A stretch of DNA of 64,000 nt from Hyphomicrobiales bacterium (lineage in GTDB: Bacteria > Pseudomonadota > Alphaproteobacteria > Rhizobiales > Xanthobacteraceae), in the NCBI GenBank assembly GCA_009377695.1, contig WHTP01000007.1, forward strand, positions 16,071-80,070, written 5' to 3'. Below, piece after piece: positions 23,158 to 24,802 of the stretch. A program made the translations under genes and the position numbers. The stretch's first letter is position 1. Every line of letters begins with the position of its first letter. The notes beneath the pieces were generated by a model that ran no database searches, was not told the DNA's origin, and saw nothing but the letters and a program-made list of their open reading frames with translations.

Positions 23158-23478
23158 CCGAAGGAACGAGGTTTGGAGATCGCGGTAGCTTTCGCCGCGT
23201 CCCGCGACGGCGAGATGGAGCGCCTGCGTGCGCTGCTACGTGGCGCCGGTCGCCGGACTCGACAACGTCATGCGGCTGTTCGCGATGTTCGCGTCTGCCT
23301 TTGCCGAAGCCGGCCTCGCCTCGTGCGCTATGGCTTTGCCAACGGCCTGCCCGGGTTTATCACCATTGAGCGGGGCGACGTCCTCCAGACCACCGCTCTG
23401 GAGATTGGGCATGGTCGCATTGTCGGCGTTACGTGGTGCGAAATCCAGACAAGCTCAGACACATGGCGGAAAGGTAGT
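23158..23478 (+). pseudogene. Degraded SigJ/ECF41-type sigma-factor C-terminal region
   Basis: Fragments in three frames: FAASRDGEMERLRALL / DNVMRLFAMFASAF / VRYGFANGLPGFITIERGDVLQTTALEIGHGRIVGV / YVVRNPDKLRHMAER-stop. Confidence 0.75.
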
Positions 23479-23481
23479 GTC

Positions 23482-23676
23482 CTAATTTGAGCGAATAGAC
23501 TGCAATGCGCGGCCCATTATTGCTCCCAAGATTGCCCCGATAAACATATTGACTGTTGCGCGCCCAAGGCCGCCTGACGAAAAGTTTCCCCCGGATTCAA
23601 AGACGTACCAAGCGAAGGCGATTATTGCGCCAAAGATTGCCATGCGCCCGACAGTCCAAAACGCAGGATCGTCCAC
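23482..23676 (-). CDS. Small membrane hypothetical protein (element cargo)
   Basis: MDDPAFWTVGRMAIFGAIIAFAWYVFESGGNFSSGGLGRATVNMFIGAILGAIMGRALQSIRSN; stop codon lies in the left inverted repeat. Confidence 0.5.
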   Translation of the reverse strand: MDDPAFWTVGRMAIFGAIIAFAWYVFESGGNFSSGGLGRATVNMFIGAILGAIMGRALQSIRSN

Positions 23677-23687
23677 TTTCTACCTCC

Positions 23688-24116
23688 CTACTGCGAAGTT
23701 TGCTCCACCAATTCCTCTAGTAAGGAACCGCCCTAGAGTTCGTATTCGTTGCACTCCATCCACAATTTCCAACCGCCGGGCGTTGGCGGGGTCTTCGCTG
23801 TCGCTTACATCCGCCACAAATAGGAACGGTATCGGCAAGCCGATGAGCATCGACTCGATGAACCTTGACTGGTTCTTCTCGTACCAGACGAGTTCGCGTT
23901 GATAATCCGGTACATAATTTCGTTCTTTTCTTCTTCCCTGCCGATCAAATATTTTTGCACCACAACTTCGGCGGGGTACTCGCGAACAATGTACCTTACA
24001 TCACGGATGTTTTTGACTATCTCTGCTTCCGCTGAGTCGATCTCCGATGGAGTCCGAGTGGGTTTCTGTGAGGCAAAAAGATGCCCCTCATCGTCATCTA
24101 AGAAAAGGTCCGCCAT
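23688..24116 (-). pseudogene. Frameshifted, C-terminally truncated DUF262 (ParB/Srx-like, GmrS-type) fragment
   Basis: ORF 24116->23913 encodes ...VRYIVREYPAEVVVQKYLIGREEEKNEI, then in another frame VPDYQRELVWYEKNQSRFIESMLIGLPIPFLFVADVSDSEDPANARRLEIVDGVQRIRTLGRFL, the DUF262 N-terminal signature. Confidence 0.75.
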
Positions 24117-24178
24117 GCAACGCCTTCGTGACCCGCACGGCTATTATACCGTCAATCGAGGGTTGTGCTAGGGTAGTC

Positions 24179-24490
24179 ATGATGACCGGCGTTGGAGTAA
24201 CCAGCGATCAGCTAAAGCGTGCCGTAGAGACCCAACACGGTTGCACGGCCACGCTCGCCCAATCTGTGCCGGTCAAAGAAACGTTTGAAGGCAAGACTGT
24301 GTGGGAAGGCGTGGTGCATGTCTTCTCAATCCACGGCCACCCCAAAGCGAACAAGGCCTATGCTTGGTCATCCCCAATAGAGGGAAGCGATAAGCGGCGG
24401 TTTTTTGCCGTGCTGCATCAGCCGCCGGTTACGTCACCGGCGGAGGCCGTCAGGGCGGCAATAGTGGCAGAGCAAAGGGCGGCCCGATGA
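24179..24490 (+). CDS. Hypothetical protein (element cargo)
   Basis: MMTGVGVTSDQLKRAVETQHGCTATLAQSVPVKETFEGKTVWEGVVHVFSIHGHP...; overlaps the next ORF via ATGA. Confidence 0.6.
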   Translation: MMTGVGVTSDQLKRAVETQHGCTATLAQSVPVKETFEGKTVWEGVVHVFSIHGHPKANKAYAWSSPIEGSDKRRFFAVLHQPPVTSPAEAVRAAIVAEQRAAR

Positions 24491-24732
24491 GCACCTTCTT
24501 AGGCTGGGCACTCCTAATCTTTCAAATTCTATTCTGTGTCGCGGCTGTTGGCACGTTTGCGTATGCTAGGAGCGACGATCCACGCCTCAGAAATTATCTG
24601 GCGTCGGCAACGTCCCTTTCGGCCGCAGCCGGTTCCTTTTACCTTGATGCTTGGTGGCCGCTCGCCGTTGGTTTTGGACTTCTATGGGTCTACAAACTGA
24701 TGAGGTTGGACCCAGCCGGTGGACGTCGCTGA
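24487..24732 (+). CDS. Small membrane hypothetical protein (element cargo)
   Basis: MSTFLGWALLIFQILFCVAAVGTFAYARSDDP...; ATGA overlap with the upstream ORF; stops 3 bp before the right inverted repeat. Confidence 0.6.
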   Translation: MSTFLGWALLIFQILFCVAAVGTFAYARSDDPRLRNYLASATSLSAAAGSFYLDAWWPLAVGFGLLWVYKLMRLDPAGGRR

Positions 24733-24802
24733 AATTCAAATTAGGACACTACCGGCGGAAACTCTGCATTGACTTGAGCCGAGCTTCCGCCTGTATTCGC
24801 GA

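Follow-up and report, generated by a model that had tools for sequence, protein, structure and literature searches.

A transposase-less cargo element in a Hyphomicrobiales genome, very probably a non-autonomous copy from an IS1-related transposon group with a conserved companion gene

The window analysed here, a 64,000-bp stretch of DNA from a Hyphomicrobiales bacterium, contains a short segment enclosed by inverted repeats. Which kind of transposon does this segment come from, what could move it, and why does it keep the genes that it carries? The original prediction was that of a gene-carrying element without a transposase, and our analysis supported it. The locus has the following features (positions in the window).

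23465-23472, no strand: left copy of the target-site duplication, GGCGGAAA, identical to 24754-24761; 45 related elements follow the same 8-bp rule
23473-23490, plus strand: left terminal inverted repeat, GGTAGTGTCCTAATTTGA; the identical 18-mer occurs across many phyla
23482-23676, minus strand: 64-aa ORF with a GTG start, its stop codon within the left repeat
23680-23949, minus strand: DUF262/GmrSD_N remnant (NsnA / PD-T4-2_A type), the 3' part of the reading, with an early end at 23680
23805-24116, minus strand: ORF in a different frame from 23680-23949; its own 5' part is the probable N-terminus of that DUF262 gene
24179-24490, plus strand: acc, 103 aa (alignment A1 of 32; AlphaFold2 pLDDT 92)
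24487-24732, plus strand: 81-aa small hydrophobic ORF, with an ATGA overlap with acc (24487-24490), ending 3 bp short of the right repeat
24736-24753, minus strand: right terminal inverted repeat, reverse complement of the left end
24754-24761, no strand: right copy of the target-site duplication, GGCGGAAA

Sequence inspection bore out the predicted 18-bp inverted repeats, which are perfect. Immediately outside both ends lies the exact 8-bp direct repeat GGCGGAAA; the target duplication is these 8 bp and not the TA that had been proposed, and the element bounded by it is 1,281 bp long. Exact matches to GTGTCCTAATTTGA (14-bp core) in the 5.8-Mb draft genome were restricted to the two ends of the element. 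The predicted AT-rich interior was confirmed by a GC content of 0.536 versus 0.642 for the whole window, a value below those of all the 1,281-bp stretches sampled from it. The ATGA overlap, the ORF ends and the tight packing between the repeats were also as described, and a six-frame search with a sensitive profile agreed with the prediction in detecting no transposase, decayed or otherwise, inside the element. The inverted repeat is a real boundary of a true transposon copy, and we hold this with high confidence for the element and for its transposon group. The repeat doubles as a stop codon: because it supplies TCA AAT TAG, terminal ORFs facing outward often end ...SN* (23482-23490 in the window; right ends of L011, L081, L102, L114 and L136).

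When the element and one copy of GGCGGAAA were removed, the open reading ...VVRNPDKLRHMAETLH* was restored, and the element therefore lies within the final codons of a gene. This target gene, which we take to resemble the C-terminus of an ECF sigma factor, is itself frameshifted, and a Pfam search with it gave no match. The empty site for the window copy would read ...CACATGGCGGAAACTCTGCATTGA. A search of relatives for further copies and empty sites had been proposed as a check. No second copy was found in 60 relatives, and no orthologous empty site was found either, as the joined flanks gave only one-sided matches in 7 congeners and no relative has both flanks. For one relative, L110, a paralogous site in the same genome is unoccupied and has only one copy of the target. 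The cognate transposase was not found in the window's genome assembly (95% complete, 235 contigs), so the present mobility of the element is putative. Another contig of this genome carries a truncated IS1595-type transposase (L010:1396-1755), which is unrelated to the element. A plasmid origin was considered and dropped: the plasmid collection gave no DNA match, and only partial acc matches were obtained, in two Methylocystis plasmid records.

The ends occur in other genomes. The 18-mer (at most one mismatch) was present in 20 of the 399 genomes of the same family, with none for a reversed-pattern control, and a scan of bacterial and archaeal genomes returned at least 118 stretches carrying it. 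Among the matches listed, the phyla were Verrucomicrobia, Acidobacteria, Planctomycetes, Bacteroidetes, Alpha- and Deltaproteobacteria, Chloroflexi and others, and 37 viral contig stretches contain the 18-mer as well. Over all loci, 45 elements with both ends and an exact 8-bp duplication were recovered, from 36 bp to 6 kb in size. In an earlier set of related loci the duplication was exact at 41 of 706 end pairs tested versus 0 of 2,824 shifted-flank controls, and chance is therefore excluded. The conservation of the ends drops after about base 18. In the open-access literature, the 18-bp end was not printed in a transposon context among the matches listed, and such an IS1 group was not found described there, although a named ISfinder entry may exist.

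Several arrangements of these ends deserve mention on their own. Elements of 36-40 bp, consisting of two 18-bp ends back to back with an exact 8-bp duplication (L066:3115-3150, L104:1409-1447 and L099:3997-4036), are among the smallest transposon-like units; when such back-to-back end pairs were looked for as a recurrent class, 340 genomes from another phylum contained no exact example. A hybrid element (L045:6334-6590) has a left end of the sister-clade type (GGTAGTGTCTCAGTTTGA), a right end of the window clade and an exact 8-bp duplication, which suggests cross-recognition of ends between the two clades. At L095:1684-3652, two elements stand in tandem with three copies of one 8-mer, GCCGCTTT, between and around them, and the first carries HigBA.

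The search for elements with the same ends and a transposase of their own, likewise foreseen, was successful in relatives. Thirteen duplication-bounded elements encode a full DDE transposase of ~275 aa and measure 2.3-6.0 kb with their cargo. D66, D137 and E201 are invariant in the family alignment, and the predicted structure (pLDDT 87.5) had DDE transposases as its top fold matches. Two cognate transposases scored 41 and 33 bits against Pfam DDE_Tnp_IS1 (PF03400), above its cut-off of 24, and 66.5 and 66.7 bits against the NCBIfam IS1 equivalog, below its cut-off of 100. Public records annotate their relatives as 'IS1 family transposase'. Only weak HTH matches were obtained in Pfam and the zinc-finger domain was without match. 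The parent transposon group is evidently related to IS1. An IS1595 affinity was tried and rejected: the cognate transposases have no PF12762 match, and the sole IS1595-type fragment of the genome lies elsewhere. IS1595 elements likewise give 8-bp duplications. The transposase profile matched 125 of the 399 genomes of the family; cognate enzymes are present in relatives of the window genome, which itself gave no match.

The transposase tree has two main groups. Elements of the first have window-type ends and acc, whereas those of the second lack acc and have ends such as GGTAGTGGGTCAGTTTGA. The sister clade without acc (L285:1249-3697, L295:156-3314, L299:78-2710 and L308:70-3186; ends GGTAGTGGGTCAGTTTGA or similar) consists of elements of 2.4-3.2 kb with 8-bp duplications and cargo, and one gene of L308 is similar to the P63C cargo found in L136. 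In L058, L130 and L156, transposases stand beside one 18-mer copy and acc was not seen within the stretch covered around them; these elements are undelimited and neutral for the acc rule.

The companion gene acc was full-length in all 13 duplication-bounded elements with a full transposase. It had been counted as one of two small plus-strand cargo ORFs in the original prediction; the ATGA coupling of the two stands, while 24179-24490 is a conserved companion gene rather than ordinary cargo. Its product is ~100 aa long in the transposon group. Of 14 loci, 8 have acc and the transposase gene overlapping by 4-14 bp and five others have them on opposite strands, and acc points toward the nearer end in nearly all duplication-bounded elements. 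The distances of acc and transposase are correlated (Mantel r 0.66, p 0.0001, n=16), a value that includes common ancestry. Among relatives the dN/dS of acc was mostly 0.1-0.2, and between the window acc and its nearest relatives pN was 0.12-0.13 and pS 0.65-0.69; judged by these values, acc is evidently under purifying selection. Searches with acc only found it in 10 of the 399 family genomes, with the 18-mer adjoining it in 8 of the 10. In another phylum, 11 of 340 genomes contained acc, and the five strongest matches were all at an end or adjoining the transposase.

No family match for acc was found in Pfam, NCBIfam, PHROGs or PADLOC, nor a sequence match in PDB, and none was found in phage records. 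AlphaFold2 predicted an alpha-beta4-alpha fold, for which no structural match was obtained at E 0.001 among PDB folds and viral folds. Most members have a net charge close to neutral, which offers no indication of DNA binding. Distant acc-like proteins (30-37% identity) were seen in two genomes, at L176:1435-1785 and L177:1333-1770, just downstream of glutathione S-transferase-like genes and without transposon ends; they are possible chromosomal relatives of acc. Four duplication-bounded elements keep acc without a transposase, namely the window element (L001), L077, L207 and L249.

The remaining genes of the window element are small or broken. The DUF262 fragment that had been predicted is real (Pfam GmrSD_N 63 bits for the reading 23683-23949, minus strand; in PADLOC, NsnA E 6e-20 and PD-T4-2_A E 7.5e-14), with the correction that it is a frameshifted remnant. 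It spans only positions 62-126 of the 385 in the NsnA profile, and the frameshift is near 23930. The ORF 23805-24116 had no PADLOC match of its own; its 5' part probably represents the N-terminus, as the length fits the missing ~61 profile positions. Since the gene is frameshifted and about two thirds of its length is missing, it is a remnant. The DUF262 gene is broken in L061, another non-autonomous relative, too. The 64-aa ORF has two hydrophobic stretches (by eye) and no family match, and the 81-aa ORF had no family match above cut-off. In 7 further acc loci, this ATGA-coupled slot after acc holds another small ORF instead. Other elements carry AIPR/AbiU-like (L249), Fic (L079), HigBA (L095), SocA/Panacea antitoxin (L253), HTH plus M78 peptidase (L114), AlbA_2 (L150), P63C (L136 and L137) and DNA methylase (L179) genes, a purely descriptive tally of cargo.

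Taken as a whole, the window element is very probably a complete non-autonomous copy of an IS1-related cargo transposon group, with the transposase lost and acc kept; it is regarded as a derivative because the parents encode both transposase and acc and, of these two, the window element holds only acc. In the mechanism that we propose, another copy would supply a ~275-aa DDE transposase that recognises both 18-bp ends. The enzyme would cut the target, the final codons of a gene that had already decayed, in a staggered way and join the ends to it, which would leave the 8-bp duplication GGCGGAAA. A deletion or an exchange of cargo probably removed the transposase from the left end, the place where relatives of the same layout (L136, L137, L114 and L150) have it. 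At the right end, acc and the coupled small hydrophobic ORF would have been retained, and the broken DUF262 restriction/defence gene would be old cargo. The element would move only when the cognate enzyme is supplied, and such movement in trans is likely.

The family assignment changed. IS630/Tc1-mariner-type elements duplicate TA, and TA does stand at positions 3-4 of each repeat. However, nearly all of the 82 ends that were scored have the preceding GG as part of their conserved sequence, and the exact 8-bp duplication lies outside the 18-bp ends, for which reason the TA/IS630 reading was rejected. Furthermore, the cognate transposase scores as IS1, so that the chance of an IS630-type element is negligible. 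A second alternative is that the window element is a fossil, an old immobile insertion retained by chance only. The broken DUF262 gene, the decay of the target gene and a genome without transposase would agree with that, whereas the two ends match perfectly, as do the two copies of the duplication, and acc is an intact gene whose pN to its nearest relatives is far below pS. We consider the fossil unlikely.

The function of acc is harder to decide. Its presence in 13 of 13 elements, the gene overlap, the co-divergence, the selection and the acc-only searches support a core role, and we lean slightly towards acc acting with the transposase, as a helper or regulator, and in trans for derivatives such as the window element. 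More tentatively, acc may be an undescribed transposition partner (helper, regulator or target-choice) that would define a trans-phylum IS1-like cargo clade and be retained for the element's own movement. It is not needed for transposition chemistry as such, because sister-clade transposases lack it. This absence, together with the four elements that keep acc without a transposase, makes cargo the main rival: acc and the coupled small ORF could be a small pair of, for instance, defence, anti-defence or toxin-antitoxin genes, and the element an ordinary mobile insertion cassette. An acc intact and conserved where the transposase is lost, a variable small hydrophobic ORF translationally coupled to it at 8 loci, and neighbouring cargo that is defence- or toxin-antitoxin-like would all fit. 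However, cargo varies between elements whereas acc is in every one with a full transposase, it shares bases with the transposase gene at 8 of 14 loci and co-diverges with the enzyme, and it has no PADLOC or PHROGs match; the cargo reading is a doubtful one, though to be taken seriously.

If the partner reading of acc is true, non-autonomous copies would keep acc as a promoter of their own movement once a transposase arrives. As a conserved gene without known family or fold, acc has a tie to transposition that is directly testable. A compact two-gene chassis of IS1-like transposase and acc, with near-identical ends, recurs in many bacterial phyla and swaps small loads of restriction, abortive-infection and toxin-antitoxin genes. 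The 18-bp end and 8-bp duplication offer a simple search key for cargo limits, hidden elements and transposase-less copies in genomes.

Among known systems, the IS1 family is like the parents in having a DDE transposase that matches the IS1 catalytic profile, short inverted ends starting with GG and an 8-bp duplication (8-9 bp in IS1). The parents differ in scoring below the NCBIfam IS1 cut-off and in having a single ORF of ~275 aa, in which Pfam gave no match to the N-terminal zinc-finger domain of IS1; they are 2-6 kb long with cargo and a second core gene, while IS1 is transposase only, about 0.7-1.1 kb. Mobile insertion cassettes, such as MIC231 of Bacillus cereus and mic-qnrD (PMC3913671), share with the window element two transposon ends, passenger genes and a target duplication without a transposase. 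In fact, cognate inverted repeats, a target duplication and passenger genes with no internal transposase were all found here, and the element is ordinary as such a cassette. Unlike the cassettes with IS231-type ends, it has IS1-like ends and keeps a conserved parental gene besides its cargo. 'Transporter IS', which PMC3129680 (citing Siguier et al. 2009) describes together with the IS1595 family, are IS-like with unrelated passenger genes, as are the autonomous relatives here; they differ in transposase family and in the second gene that every autonomous copy has here. Tn7-like transposons with defence cargo (PMC8649781) similarly carry exchangeable defence and toxin-antitoxin genes, but with the Tns protein set, whereas the group described here has one small transposase plus acc and is much smaller. 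What is new is an IS1-like group that carries cargo and extends across phyla, together with the conserved companion gene of this group.
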